Below the pieces are notes generated by a model. That model saw only the letters and a list, made by a program, of their open reading frames with translations, searched no databases and had not been told where the DNA came from. DNA of 36,323 bases from positions 1 to 36,323 of the IMG/VR virus record IMGVR_UViG_3300042691_014437. One strand, 5' to 3'. Source of the DNA: a virus. This document shows, one piece after another, positions 17,678-35,964 of this stretch. Within the stretch, counting starts at the first letter, position 1. Each line of letters begins with the position of its first letter. The position numbers were made by a program, and so were the translations under genes.

Positions 17678-19192
17678 CTATCCAAAAAACTTTGGCACTA
17701 TCCTTTTCTCTATTTTAGCCCCTGCTCGGTCATACGCCAAGATAGCAGCGACAGCTGCATCTATCCTACGATTGCTGGAACGATTCTCTTTAACAATACG
17801 AACACCCAAACTATCTGTCTTTACTACAGCGTTACTCAAATGACGTGCAAGCAAAGGATTACCGTCATGGGTTATACGCTTCTCAACGACAGCATCAAAG
17901 AAAGCAGCACAGGCAGGAATCATACGTTTTGCTGAAGTAGACGGCCACTCAACAATCGGGATACCCTCATCAGCCAACGCTTCCATAGATCTTTGCCAAC
18001 GGTAAGGGTCACAAGCAACCTCACGAACCTTATACTTTGCACAGAACTCACGGATAGCGTTCTCAGCATCCAGAATGTCTACACGCCAAGTATCGTCAGA
18101 ATCAACAGGCTTCTCCCACGCCTTCACCAAGAACACATAAGGTTTATCTTCTTCATGTCTTGCCTTGCGACAACCAACAATGACAGTCGTATCCCCAGAG
18201 AACGAGCCGTCAAAGCCCAACACATACTCGCCATCAGGATCTAGCTCTTCAGGCTCAGCGATAGCATCCCACACACCAGTAGGAAGCCAAGAGATGGCAC
18301 TAGACACCCATTGGTTACAACGCTTGGTGCGGAACTCAGACTCAGGGGTACGCAACACAGCAGACTCGTAATCAGACAAAGCACAAATGTCATCAATGCC
18401 AGGATTAGCGATACGCCAAGTTTCTTCCAGCCTGTGATCTGCTTCCATAGGTGCTTCCCACCAAGCCATAAAAAATGTTGGGTCAACAATCTCGCCACGA
18501 GCAACCTTCTGCCCATACTGATACAAAGAGTAGGCAATGCTGTCCTGACCCGTATTGTCAGACTTTACCCCAGCAGTAGTAATCGCAATCATAGAAGCCA
18601 TGTTTCCTCTAGCACCCTGAGCCAAAGACATAACATCAAACAGCTCCCTGTTGGGCTGGGCATGAAGCTCATCAAGCACAATTAATGTTGGAGATAGGCC
18701 CTCTTTAGTGAACGCTTCAGATGACAGCACACGATACACAGACCCAGTAGACGGAACTTCAATAGCATCCCTATACAACTTCACCATGTCCATCAAGTCA
18801 GGGTGAGCTTCAATCATCTTCTTCGCATCAGCAAACACGATACGGGCTTGGTCTCGGTCAGCTGCACAACTGTAAACCTCAGCACCATTAATACCCTGAG
18901 CCAACAAACCATAGATACCCAACGTACTGGCAAGGGCTGACTTGCCTTGCTTTCTTGGCATACCAATCAAATTGATGCGGTGCTTCAAACCCTTATCGTC
19001 ATGGGCAAAAACATTCCTAAACAAATCTTTCTGCCAGTCACGCAACTGCAAAGGTACGCCAGCCTTACCAGCAACAGAGTCCTTAGTGATAATGCCAAAA
19101 GTTTCAGCAAACGCAATGACCGCTTCACCCTTGCCCTTAGCAATCTGCTCGTCAGTAACAGGGGTTAGCCAAGCAGGTGGCCAACTAGCCAT
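17678..19192 (-). CDS. terminase large subunit (504 aa)
   Basis: The packaging motor. The ATPase domain has Walker A GMPRKQGKS (residues 77-85) and Walker B TLIVLDE (169-175). The RNase H-like nuclease has D328 in LGFDGSFSGD, D407 in ACDPYRW and a last acidic residue in RRIDAAVAAILAYD near the C-terminus. Length and layout match actinophage TerL. It overlaps the small subunit by eight bases. Confidence 0.96.
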   Translation of the reverse strand: MASWPPAWLTPVTDEQIAKGKGEAVIAFAETFGIITKDSVAGKAGVPLQLRDWQKDLFRNVFAHDDKGLKHRINLIGMPRKQGKSALASTLGIYGLLAQGINGAEVYSCAADRDQARIVFADAKKMIEAHPDLMDMVKLYRDAIEVPSTGSVYRVLSSEAFTKEGLSPTLIVLDELHAQPNRELFDVMSLAQGARGNMASMIAITTAGVKSDNTGQDSIAYSLYQYGQKVARGEIVDPTFFMAWWEAPMEADHRLEETWRIANPGIDDICALSDYESAVLRTPESEFRTKRCNQWVSSAISWLPTGVWDAIAEPEELDPDGEYVLGFDGSFSGDTTVIVGCRKARHEEDKPYVFLVKAWEKPVDSDDTWRVDILDAENAIREFCAKYKVREVACDPYRWQRSMEALADEGIPIVEWPSTSAKRMIPACAAFFDAVVEKRITHDGNPLLARHLSNAVVKTDSLGVRIVKENRSSNRRIDAAVAAILAYDRAGAKIEKRIVPKFFG

Positions 19193-28801: not shown

Positions 28802-29124
28802 TGTTTCTCTTCTACTAGGTTTGAGTTCCAAACACGAATAGGTCTGGCATGTGAGACTGCACGTTTAGAAGCAATAAAACTATCTGACGGTTTTATGTGT
28901 CCAATTTTGCTGGCATTTCTAAACATTGCCCCCATAGCTGCAGGTTGATGGGTTTGTATTTCAGGATAATTTTTTAGTTCATCCCAAACATCATCAGACG
29001 TAAAATGATCTAGCCTATTGGCAAGTTGACCAATAATTTTTGTGACCAGATCAGTCCAAGCCTTATTAGCGTTATCTTCAACCTGTTCAAGAGCTTCATC
29101 TCTTAGTTGTGTAGCAGTTTTCAT
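28789..29124 (-). CDS. conserved phage protein, winged-helix-like (111 aa)
   Basis: The pattern EALEQVEDNANKAW, then DHFTSDDVWDELKNYPEIQTH, AMGAMFRNASKIGHIKPS and SHARPIRVWNSN is familiar from small phage proteins of actinobacteria, where it looks like a winged-helix fold. The role is unknown. TAATG overlap with the methyltransferase stop. Confidence 0.72.
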   Translation of the reverse strand: MKTATQLRDEALEQVEDNANKAWTDLVTKIIGQLANRLDHFTSDDVWDELKNYPEIQTHQPAAMGAMFRNASKIGHIKPSDSFIASKRAVSHARPIRVWNSNLVEEKQWWS

Positions 29125-30002
29125 TAGTTCCCTTTCAGTTCAATGTCTTGTAGCAATACTCTTAATGCTAGTTCTGCTTGTTGCGGAACAACACCATTGC
29201 CACATGCTTTTAATTGTTCATTTCGTGTCAACCCTATTTCTGGGTCTGTAACCCAACCAGCAGGAAGCCCCATCATCCATTCAGTAAACTCTGCTGACAG
29301 ACGGTGGTTACCGTCTTTGCCGTCAGGTTTAGTGGGTGCTGGTGCTGGTTGATTTATTGTTTGTTCCCATCTTCTGATGGCTGGCTCAAACTTACCCCAA
29401 TCAAGAGTAAGAACCTGTGTGTTTAGTGGCAAAGTATTTCTGTCAAATTGACTAGGGCCACCATTGTTTTTTGCATCTTGTGTTGTAGGTGTAGGAAGCA
29501 TCTCCATACGAACAGCAACTCCAAGGCTCACCCCAGGCATACCCTTAGTCTTGCCGTCAATGTAATCCTGTCTGCGTTCCAAATAGTTTTCTATCGGCTC
29601 ATCATGGTTACGAATGTGACCAACAGCAGGAGTAGGGAGCAAAGACATAGCAATACTGTCTGAAACCTTTAGACCATTCTCAAATGCTAACTGTGCCATC
29701 TGGTCAGCAGTCTTTACCATGCGACCACGATCACGGGCTTGAGTCTCACTAATAGCACCACCAGTAGAGTCTGTAACACTAGGTGTCCTAATTAATGCTT
29801 CGTCTGGGATAGGCAACAATGAAGACTCTAAATCGGTTGTGGGTAGCACCTGCATCAGCTGCTCGTATGCCACACCATTTTCCGTCATACCCCAAATCGG
29901 CCAAGTCTCCCAAAACACATCCGATTGCTCTGAGAAAAGGTTTTCCTGCGGGGATAACCAAATCTTCTTCTCCGTACTCCATACCGCTATTTGCTTCAGC
30001 AC
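29124..30002 (-). CDS. C5 methyltransferase C-terminal part (frame 2; GTG at 30002 or frameshift product)
   Basis: Open from 30002 (GTG, with AGGGG eight bases upstream but inside frame-1 coding sequence). The first 60 residues are the out-of-frame reading of motif VIII and look non-native; homology begins near PIPDEALIRTPSV. Ends with the ACGNGVVPQQAELAL motif. Independent translation is possible but less likely than a fusion. Confidence 0.65.
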   Translation of the reverse strand: MLKQIAVWSTEKKIWLSPQENLFSEQSDVFWETWPIWGMTENGVAYEQLMQVLPTTDLESSLLPIPDEALIRTPSVTDSTGGAISETQARDRGRMVKTADQMAQLAFENGLKVSDSIAMSLLPTPAVGHIRNHDEPIENYLERRQDYIDGKTKGMPGVSLGVAVRMEMLPTPTTQDAKNNGGPSQFDRNTLPLNTQVLTLDWGKFEPAIRRWEQTINQPAPAPTKPDGKDGNHRLSAEFTEWMMGLPAGWVTDPEIGLTRNEQLKACGNGVVPQQAELALRVLLQDIELKGN

Positions 30003-30354
30003 TTAAAATACCCCTAACATTTTCTATAACAACCAATTTAGGTTGCAACTCTTCAATAGCCCTAGCAAACTCTGACCATAGACCAGACCTAGTGCCTTCT
30101 TTCAAACCTGCTCTTTTACCTGCGATAGATAAATCTTGACAAGGAAAACCACCTGTAAGGACATCAACTTTTTCTACTTGTGTAAAATCAACTTTTGTTA
30201 CATCACGATAGTTTGGAACACCAGGAAAGTTGCGTTCAAGGATCTTTGATGGTGCATCATCCCATTCGCAATGCCAAGCAACTTCGCCACCAATAACAGC
30301 CGAAACTGCTAAATCTAAGCCACCATAACCAGAAAATAGACTTCCTATCTTCAT
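29124..30354 (-). CDS. C5 cytosine methyltransferase, full length if read through a +1 frame change (409 aa)
   Basis: Frame 1 (30354 to 29806) carries motif I FSGYGGLDLA, the catalytic PCQ at 71-73 (C72), ENV at 111-113 and the motif VIII-like THNRFRVFIVAYP. Frame 2 (29804 to 29124) carries the rest: variable region with LLPTPTTQDAKNNGG, then LTRNEQLKACGNGVVPQQAELAL, the C-terminal motif that completes the fold. Skipping A at 29805 after CCC joins them as AYP-DEALIRTPSV. It would methylate cytosine in phage DNA and protect it from restriction. Sequencing error, programmed +1 shift or a two-subunit enzyme are all possible. Confidence 0.8.
29788..30354 (-). CDS. C5 methyltransferase N-terminal (catalytic) part (188 aa)
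   Basis: The unshifted product. It holds AdoMet-binding motif I, catalytic PCQ and ENV but lacks the target-recognition region and the last motif, so it should be inactive alone. It ends RRSIN after a TAG at 29788. ATG at 30354 overlaps the end of the preceding small gene. Confidence 0.85.
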   Translation of the reverse strand: MKIGSLFSGYGGLDLAVSAVIGGEVAWHCEWDDAPSKILERNFPGVPNYRDVTKVDFTQVEKVDVLTGGFPCQDLSIAGKRAGLKEGTRSGLWSEFARAIEELQPKLVVIENVRGILSAEANSGMEYGEEDLVIPAGKPFLRAIGCVLGDLADLGYDGKWCGIRAADAGATHNRFRVFIVAYPRRSIN

Positions 30355-32268: not shown

Positions 32269-33084
32269 TTAGCCTTTTGCAACCTTACCAAAGTTACATT
32301 TACGGCAATTCCAAACAATCTTGTCATGCTCACAATGCTTAGGTGGGGCTAAAACAACCTTCTTTTCGTGTTCTAGGGCTTCAGCAGCACGAATACGATC
32401 TAACTCCCGTACACGTTGCACACGGGCTTCCTCAGCCATCCTCGCTTCATTCTGTAGCTCTTCCTTAGTTTTCTGTCTCTCAGGCAACGGAGCATCACCC
32501 CAACGATCACCATTCAACCAAGTAGTCGGATAAGGGATGAACTCTTGTGGTGGAAGATTCTTGTCGTGGGCATAGCGTACACAGCCAGCAAGAATGTCAT
32601 CAAAGCTTGCTCTCTGCAAAGCAGATTCAAAAGCTTTACACGCAGCTCGCTTAGAAACCTTACGAGGATAAACATTCCAGAATTCCTCAAAATGAGCATA
32701 TAGGTTAATATATGTTTCTTTTAAAGGTTTGTGTGCCAGATCTGTCACCCCTGACGTACCCAGTCTGTCACCCCTGCTTACCTGAGCTGTCACCCCTGCT
32801 TCCCAGTTTGTCACCCCTGGCAAAAGAATCCAATACTTATTTGTCTTGTATTGACCACCAAAATCAGAGCCATTAACTTCAACGCTAATCTCCCCGATTT
32901 CCTGAAGATACTGCAAATCTCTTTTGATTGATCTTTCACTAGCGTTAGCGTAACGAGCCAAAGTAGCGATAGACGGCCAAGCACCATTATCGCCATGATG
33001 GTTAGCGATACCAATTAGCACAAGCTTGGCTCGCCCATCAGCCCGACTGTTATTTAGGACAGCCGAAATCATCTCCACACTCAT
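32269..33084 (-). CDS. replication initiator with HTH domain and internal iterons (271 aa)
   Basis: Residues 1-75 form a winged helix-turn-helix (AVLNNSRADGRAKLVLIGIANH then SIATLARYANASERSIKRDLQYLQEIGEISVE), as in phage replisome organisers. Residues 89-114 are an Arg/Gly-rich linker encoded by the iteron DNA. Then FEEFWNVYPRKVSKRAACKAFESAL and PYPTTWLNGDRWGD, a segment common in phage replication proteins. The last 25 residues have a zinc motif (C-x-H, C-x2-C). It probably binds the iterons and loads the host helicase. No helicase or polymerase gene is present, so host enzymes must be used. Confidence 0.87.
   Translation of the reverse strand: MSVEMISAVLNNSRADGRAKLVLIGIANHHGDNGAWPSIATLARYANASERSIKRDLQYLQEIGEISVEVNGSDFGGQYKTNKYWILLPGVTNWEAGVTAQVSRGDRLGTSGVTDLAHKPLKETYINLYAHFEEFWNVYPRKVSKRAACKAFESALQRASFDDILAGCVRYAHDKNLPPQEFIPYPTTWLNGDRWGDAPLPERQKTKEELQNEARMAEEARVQRVRELDRIRAAEALEHEKKVVLAPPKHCEHDKIVWNCRKCNFGKVAKG
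32690..32820. other. candidate replication origin: four iterons plus AT-rich stretch
   Basis: tgtcacccctg occurs exactly at 32743-32753, 32766-32776, 32788-32798 and 32809-32819, with starts 23, 22 and 21 bases apart, about two helical turns. The neighbouring 32697-32727 stretch is nearly all A and T (ttaatatatg). The copies are read in different frames of the initiator gene, so selection acts on DNA and not on protein. This is the arrangement of lambda-type origins, where the initiator gene contains its own binding sites. Confidence 0.85.
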
Positions 33085-35655: not shown

Positions 35656-35964
35656 ATGACAAACCACCGACATCAGATACCAATTTCACGAAAACTTTTT
35701 TCTTTTTTAGAACTACAAGAAAAAGTCGGTGAACTACCCTGCCAAAACTTCCCTGATGCGTTCTTCCCAGACATAGGAACAACAGGGCATCAAGACACCC
35801 AGTACGCTAAAGAGCTATGTTCAATGTGTCCAATAATGCAAGAGTGTAGGACATACGCTATAGAAGCAAAAGAACCACTAGGGATCTGGGGTGGGCTAAC
35901 AGCAGGAGAAAGACGAGTACACAGGTCTATTTCTTCTGTTCTGTATCCTTTACCTTCTGAATAG
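35656..35964 (+). CDS. WhiB-family iron-sulfur transcription factor (102 aa)
   Basis: The only gene on the plus strand. It has the four conserved cysteines C29, C55, C58 and C64 (C-x2-C-x5-C) that bind a 4Fe-4S cluster, and the GIWGGLTAGERR segment that is the family signature. WhiB proteins occur only in Actinobacteria and their phages and act with the housekeeping sigma factor. Here it may switch gene expression or block a second infection. AAGG lies seven bases before the ATG. The 3' end overlaps the holin gene tail to tail by 38 bases. Confidence 0.94.
   Translation: MTNHRHQIPISRKLFSFLELQEKVGELPCQNFPDAFFPDIGTTGHQDTQYAKELCSMCPIMQECRTYAIEAKEPLGIWGGLTAGERRVHRSISSVLYPLPSE

Follow-up and report, generated by a model that had tools for sequence, protein, structure and literature searches.

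A candidate replication origin formed by off-frame iterons within the winged-helix initiator gene of a freshwater actinobacterial phage, and a possible residue-to-base code for its recognition

Replication origins located within the gene of their own initiator are known from lambda and from Stx phages, where the iterons of ori lie in the initiator gene O, four in lambda and four or six in Stx-phage variants (PMC7466680). According to a 2024 review, no structure of iteron-bound lambda O has yet been solved (PMC10797057). Rep of plasmid pSK41, an initiator of RepA_N type, uses its N-terminal winged helix to bind four Rep boxes situated midway along rep; the linker encoded by ori is dispensable, and a C-terminal domain contacts the primosome (PMC5703833). 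The Rep protein of pPR9 carries an N-terminal domain of family PF13730, and about 500 bp comprising this domain and ori are swapped as a cassette; the pPR9 mini-replicon replicates (PMC5703833). In PLE, the DNA-binding domain of RepA (RepA_N) and the iterons of ori covary between variants (PMC8263062). RepA of mycobacteriophage Miko is an HTH protein whose gene is sufficient for replication, with an origin proposed within or beside repA, repeats not having been found there nor iterons reported (PMC7157519).

The DNA analysed here (the window, i.e. the whole stretch of 36,323 nucleotides, a viral contig from IMG/VR) is assigned to a freshwater-type phage of actinobacteria, and the presence of a WhiB gene points to an actinobacterial host. 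This WhiB-like regulator, at 35656-35964 near the right-hand edge of the window, is encoded on the + strand, while nearly all long genes lie on the - strand. One of these encodes a replication initiator, with RusA, a RecE/YqaJ exonuclease and other replication and recombination genes as neighbours. It contains four exact copies of an 11-mer, reading TGTCACCCCTG on the + strand and CAGGGGTGACA on the - (coding) strand. The features of the locus are as follows:

32269..33084, - strand: initiator gene, 271 aa, with an N-terminal winged HTH (PF13730), a disordered linker and a C-terminal helical domain
32809..33084, - strand: N-terminal winged-helix DNA-binding domain, residues 1-92 (Pfam, AF2 and PDB matches)
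32968..32970, - strand: codon of I39, at the start of the helix preceding the recognition helix (two lineages combine K39 with A7, see below)
32899..32937, - strand: recognition helix, residues 50-62 (DSSP of the AF2 model; iteron bases 7 and 9 covary with its residues)
32809..32819, - strand: iteron 1 in gene order, CAGGGGTGACA, read as (P)GVT
32788..32798, - strand: iteron 2 in gene order, CAGGGGTGACA, read as (A)GVT
32766..32776, - strand: iteron 3 in gene order, CAGGGGTGACA, in a shifted frame, read as (S)RGD(R)
32743..32753, - strand: iteron 4 in gene order, CAGGGGTGACA, read as (S)GVT
32488..32721, - strand: C-terminal helical domain, residues 122-199, candidate helicase- or primosome-recruiting part
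32681..32730, no strand: AT-rich stretch, candidate DNA-unwinding element, 3' of the iterons in the sense of the gene

The + strand starts at 32743, 32766, 32788 and 32809 (span 32743-32819) correspond to steps of 23, 22 and 21 bp, as an earlier note on this DNA had claimed for four exact copies in an HTH initiator gene; coordinates and frames were confirmed. All four copies lie inside the gene at 32269-33084, with gene offsets of 265, 286, 308 and 331, i.e. 1, 1, 2 and 1 modulo 3, encoding GVT, GVT, RGD and GVT. They separate the parts of the initiator ORF that encode its two domains, the position expected of near-identical iterons in an origin of this type. No fifth copy of TGTCACCCCTG with 0 or 1 mismatch was found in the whole 36,323-base record. 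Chance was assessed by synonymous codon resampling of the whole gene, using the codon usage of the phage itself and keeping the peptide: among 20,000 draws, no 11-mer occurred more than three times inside 110 bp (three in 21 draws), and four copies were seen in none. The joint chance that the initiator peptide is written with four identical 11-mers is ~7e-13. Four copies are thus beyond synonymous chance, and therefore the DNA word is what is fixed. This bears out a further proposal of the earlier note, namely that the DNA repeat is conserved and not the peptide, two frames being in use.

The initiator itself is a member of HTH_36 (PF13730; E=1.6e-8, 34.7 bits at a curated cut-off of 25), and its best and longest PHROG match is to phrog_270, replication initiation protein (E=7.5e-33). 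Partial matches are to PHROGs 8540, 391 and 678 (replication initiation O-like), and the C-terminal part matches phrog_9327 (primosomal protein) and phrog_9474, as well as phage genes annotated as DnaD-like helicase loader. In the AF2 model the N-terminal winged helix is confident (pLDDT mostly >80), residues 93-121 are disordered (pLDDT <50) and approximately coincide with the iteron-encoded linker, and the C-terminal domain is helical and confident. The model of this latter domain found no match among PDB folds; in sequence it weakly resembles 1no1, a replisome organizer of solved structure (E=0.42), which is a lead only. The N-terminal domain matches winged-helix proteins in the PDB, including 4pt7 and 4pql, which we take to be initiator N-terminal domains of the RepA_N family. 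Membership of the initiator in that family was considered and rejected, the likeness being at the level of the fold only: the RepA_N profile gave no match to the initiator at E up to 0.1.

Protein searches of IMG/VR yielded 27 and then 80 loci. Together with the window gene, the 80-locus protein-selected set contains 43 nonredundant genes, and iterons are present in 42 of them. Among 42 nonredundant protein-selected relatives (over 160 copies), 8 of the 11 iteron columns reach 1.95-2.0 bits and none of the remaining three drops below 1.6, whereas the spacer columns are near random, mostly <0.6 bits. The step patterns are diverse (21/21/21, 21/22/23, 20/22/23, 22/22/22, 33/21/22, 12/21/21) and frames shift. 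The earlier note had proposed to check whether the repeats persist in related phages whose linker peptide differs, and the outcome is in its favour. In the more distant relatives L019-L024, which have the C-terminal domain in common at 31-35% identity, the iteron is absent. A vector test of helical spacing scored 0.84-0.86 for a period of 10.5-11 versus 0.27 for a period of 3, with other periods near 10.5-11 also scoring high, since most steps are 21-23. The idea of an exact helical period was dropped for this reason, and we state only that the iteron steps cluster near whole helical turns.

A blind scan of viral IMG/VR contigs for pairs of CAGGGGTGACA separated by 6-16 bp returned at least 120 contigs. 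Among the matches listed, all 113 with steps of 20-24 bp lie inside an HTH initiator ORF, 112 of them on the same strand; among the seven listed with other steps, one lies in an HTH initiator ORF and six do not. Paired iterons of a TGACA type were also seen inside the HTH ORF of L101 and L195, on the strand opposite to the gene. In contigs of bacterial genomes the paired word falls outside HTH genes in 39 of 44 cases; the signal therefore belongs to phages and integrated elements, and in chromosomes the paired motif alone is not diagnostic.

The stretch at 32681-32730, directly beside the iterons as in an origin of this kind, is 76% AT compared with 57% genome-wide and holds the least stable 50-mer nearby; about 0.6-0.8% of the 50-mers of the phage are equally AT-rich or unstable. 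The AT-rich neighbourhood described in the earlier note is confirmed. AT-rich DNA is found at the same 3' place in 42/42 relatives.

Comparable arrays are found in cultured phages and plasmids. Five copies of a GGGGTG[AC]AC type, with steps of 30/22/22/22 and in all three frames, occur in the Arthrobacter phages Galaxy, Abidatro, Andrew and Marchesin (helix RSVQN), and Eesa (helix RSVQR) carries four related copies (22/22/22), some of which read GGGGTG[AC]CA. The gp8 gene of EBPR podovirus 2 (L207), annotated as hypothetical, has six exact copies of AAACCCGGAA (14/14/14/22/22, three frames), likely an unannotated origin as judged from this array. The Rhodococcus plasmid pRA1 (L369) holds four copies of GGGGTGCCTC, each step exactly 23 bp and all three frames represented, within an annotated HTH gene, and a Sulfitobacter plasmid (L370) five GGTAAAGTCC-type copies, likewise in an annotated HTH gene. 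Lambda, measured in the same way, has four iterons with steps of 20/24/23 in frames 0, 2, 2 and 1 and an AT-rich 3' side. Taking cultured phages, plasmids and lambda together, off-frame iterons within the initiator gene are therefore usual for such origins. A lack of iterons in RedFox, VanLee, Lilmac1015, MooMoo and Kels would carry little weight, the simple repeat finder being unreliable on these genes.

Some relatives switch every iteron copy together, from T7 to G, from A9 to T or from T7 to A, in company with a change of one or two HTH residues. In L012 all four copies are CAGGGGGGACA (G7) and the recognition helix carries K54R; in L234 all four are CAGGGGTGTCA (T9), with R51S; L381 and L388 have four GGGGAGACA copies each (A7), keep Q54 and possess K39. 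K39 accompanies A7 in 2/2 cases and is missing from all T7 and G7 classes tabulated. The rule for residue 54 was noted after three lineages, and a fresh scan for GGGGGGACA pairs then gave six new HTH lineages, all with R54 (L315, the L317 group, L336, L338, L342 and L364). One exception is L337, a weak HTH match with GGGGGGACA copies yet K54. GGGGGGACA by itself is a poor marker, 38 of 61 contigs being without an HTH ORF. Across the comparison, which takes in hundreds of relatives and whose class counts are non-independent observations, R54 occurs in 10/10 G7 helix classes versus 0/59 T7 classes, the T7 set having been picked partly by its word, with the protein-selected set in agreement. Among the columns of the domain, residue 54 alone accounts for base 7 in full (0.597 of 0.597 bits; the second-best column reaches 0.466). 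A tree built without residues 49-58 requires seven changes of base 7. Its well-supported branches provide six independent contrasts, which without exception point the same way (p=0.031); as several rows are long branches, this count of contrasts is the conservative one. R51 is found in 67/67 A9 or C9 classes and is missing in 3/3 T9 classes, reflecting only 2-3 independent events. One relative, L066, holds two CAGGGGTGACA (T7) and two CAGGGGGGACA (G7) copies in a single gene with K54 and looks like an intermediate, perhaps caught in mid-switch.

In the window, the probable specificity residues of the recognition helix are R51 and K54 (also R55). Of these, 51 and 54 occupy helix positions 2 and 5, which typically contact bases in winged helices. 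Since the switches of the site track changes in the DNA-reading helices of the initiator, the initiator very probably binds the iterons through its own HTH, a reading that the sequence comparisons strongly support. Going further, we consider it reasonably probable, if well short of assured, that a code relates reader and site: residues 39 and 54 would set base 7 (K/Q54 with I/V/L39 for T, R54 for G, K39 for A), residue 51 base 9 (R for A, other residues for T), and residue 55 perhaps bases 10-11. Reader and site would then co-evolve within one gene, and sequence might suffice to predict which origins are recognised in phages and plasmids of several phyla. In the Arthrobacter phages L203, L204, L205, L206, L211 and L372, N55 (RSVQNKL) is found with GGGGTG[AC]AC and R55 (RSVQRKL) with GGGGTG[AC]CA. 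A fourth code position at residue 55 is possible, with few independent lineages bearing on it. No published residue-by-base code for the HTH_36 family was found in a search of the open literature, and the code appears to be undescribed.

Based on these data, we regard it as very likely that 32743-32819 together with 32681-32730 form a replication origin lying, like lambda ori in O, within the initiator gene, in which the winged helix binds the iterons, the AT-rich DNA melts and the C-terminal domain recruits host helicase and primase. As to mechanism, covariation suggests recognition of every one of the four 11-bp iterons by the N-terminal winged helix. The steps of 21-23 bp would put the bound monomers on approximately the same face of the helix, so that an O-some-like complex could form. 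From its position and composition, the AT-rich stretch 32681-32730 may then be melted by the bound array, and the C-terminal domain, going by its family labels, might bring in host helicase and primase. With the iterons acting as signals in the DNA, the linker would be a passive tether, free in frame and sequence. The protein-binding origin proposed in the earlier note is thereby backed as to binding, through covariation and DNA conservation; its origin part draws on the architecture and on the precedent of lambda, pSK41 and pPR9, by analogy with which we infer a start of replication at 32743-32819.

Other signals in the record were searched as well. No helicase, primase or polymerase family was recognised among the 28 window proteins searched against PHROGs, apart from a minor primase-profile match of one methyltransferase ORF; the phage presumably depends on host replication proteins, and the contig may be incomplete. 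A DNA methyltransferase at 29124-30354 of the window is split into overlapping - strand ORFs, 29788-30354 (N-terminal) and 29124-30002 (C-terminal), which may be a frameshifted gene, an indel from sequencing or a programmed shift. The GC-skew check suggested for the replication start did not succeed: neither GC skew nor keto skew turns at 32.7 kb, and skew is uninformative here because nearly all genes run one way and this near-unidirectional coding masks it. DnaA boxes are not enriched (11 near-matches versus 19.8 expected).

Autorepression via iteron binding is common in plasmids. The initiator might accordingly bind the iterons for autoregulation or copy-number control, as an internal roadblock or operator, with the origin elsewhere; covariation points to binding by the initiator, and the same sites could serve. 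We consider this improbable, as the sites lie deep within the gene rather than at a promoter, promoter-like and terminator-like matches near the iterons are at chance level, the AT-rich stretch is always 3', and no other iteron cluster exists in the 36 kb record. Furthermore, the layout is that of lambda ori and pSK41 ori (PMC5703833).

Binding by another factor (a host protein or a phage repressor), linked to the initiator gene by chance, is very unlikely: bases 7 and 9 change with the initiator's own residues 54 and 51 in independent lineages, and among the viral contigs listed the word at 20-24 bp steps is found only with the HTH initiator family. It is scarcely credible that selection acts on a repetitive GVT/RGD linker peptide, with the DNA repeat arising from duplication as a by-product. 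In some relatives all copies do share a single frame, 21 bp apart, and thus encode GVT repeats; however, two or more reading frames occur in 50 of 70 helix/iteron classes, steps in most classes are not multiples of three, synonymous positions are fixed to the extent given by the resampling, spacer peptides vary freely, and variant words such as CAGGGGGGACA change every copy across two frames. Repeats also occur in cos/pac and recombination sites, but a packaging site or recombination hotspot instead of an origin is equally hard to credit, as the array is tied to the recognition helix of the initiator and lies in the replication cluster near RusA and RecE-like genes, far from the terminase at 17678-19192.

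An origin within the initiator gene, as favoured here, is of practical interest since the origins of most phages known from sequence only are unmapped, and a single 11-mer locates a candidate origin across a very large phage family. The family offers natural mutants of site and reader together, whose covariation gives concrete candidate residue-base contacts of a small winged helix and helps to predict incompatible phages and plasmids.

In comparison with known systems, lambda likewise has four iterons between the DNA-binding and C-terminal parts of its initiator, off-frame steps of 20-24 bp and an AT-rich 3' tract. The lambda iteron, however, is an 18-bp, partly palindromic sequence, whereas here it is an asymmetric 11-bp word; the initiator is of HTH_36/phrog_270 type, its matches to O-like families being partial, and no lambda P gene was recognised. 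pSK41 Rep shares the sites in the middle of the gene, the N-terminal winged helix and the linker encoded by ori, but belongs to RepA_N instead of HTH_36, and the C-terminal model here has no PDB match that would mark it as DnaD-like. With pPR9 Rep the HTH family PF13730 is common to both, while the C-terminal domain differs. The ori of PLE is intergenic, with a RepA_N initiator and covariation at the level of domains, in contrast to the intragenic array and per-residue covariation seen here. Miko RepA is an HTH initiator of an actinobacterial phage as well, but no iterons are reported for it. The layout as such equals that of lambda ori/O and pSK41 Rep, and is in itself already known textbook knowledge.
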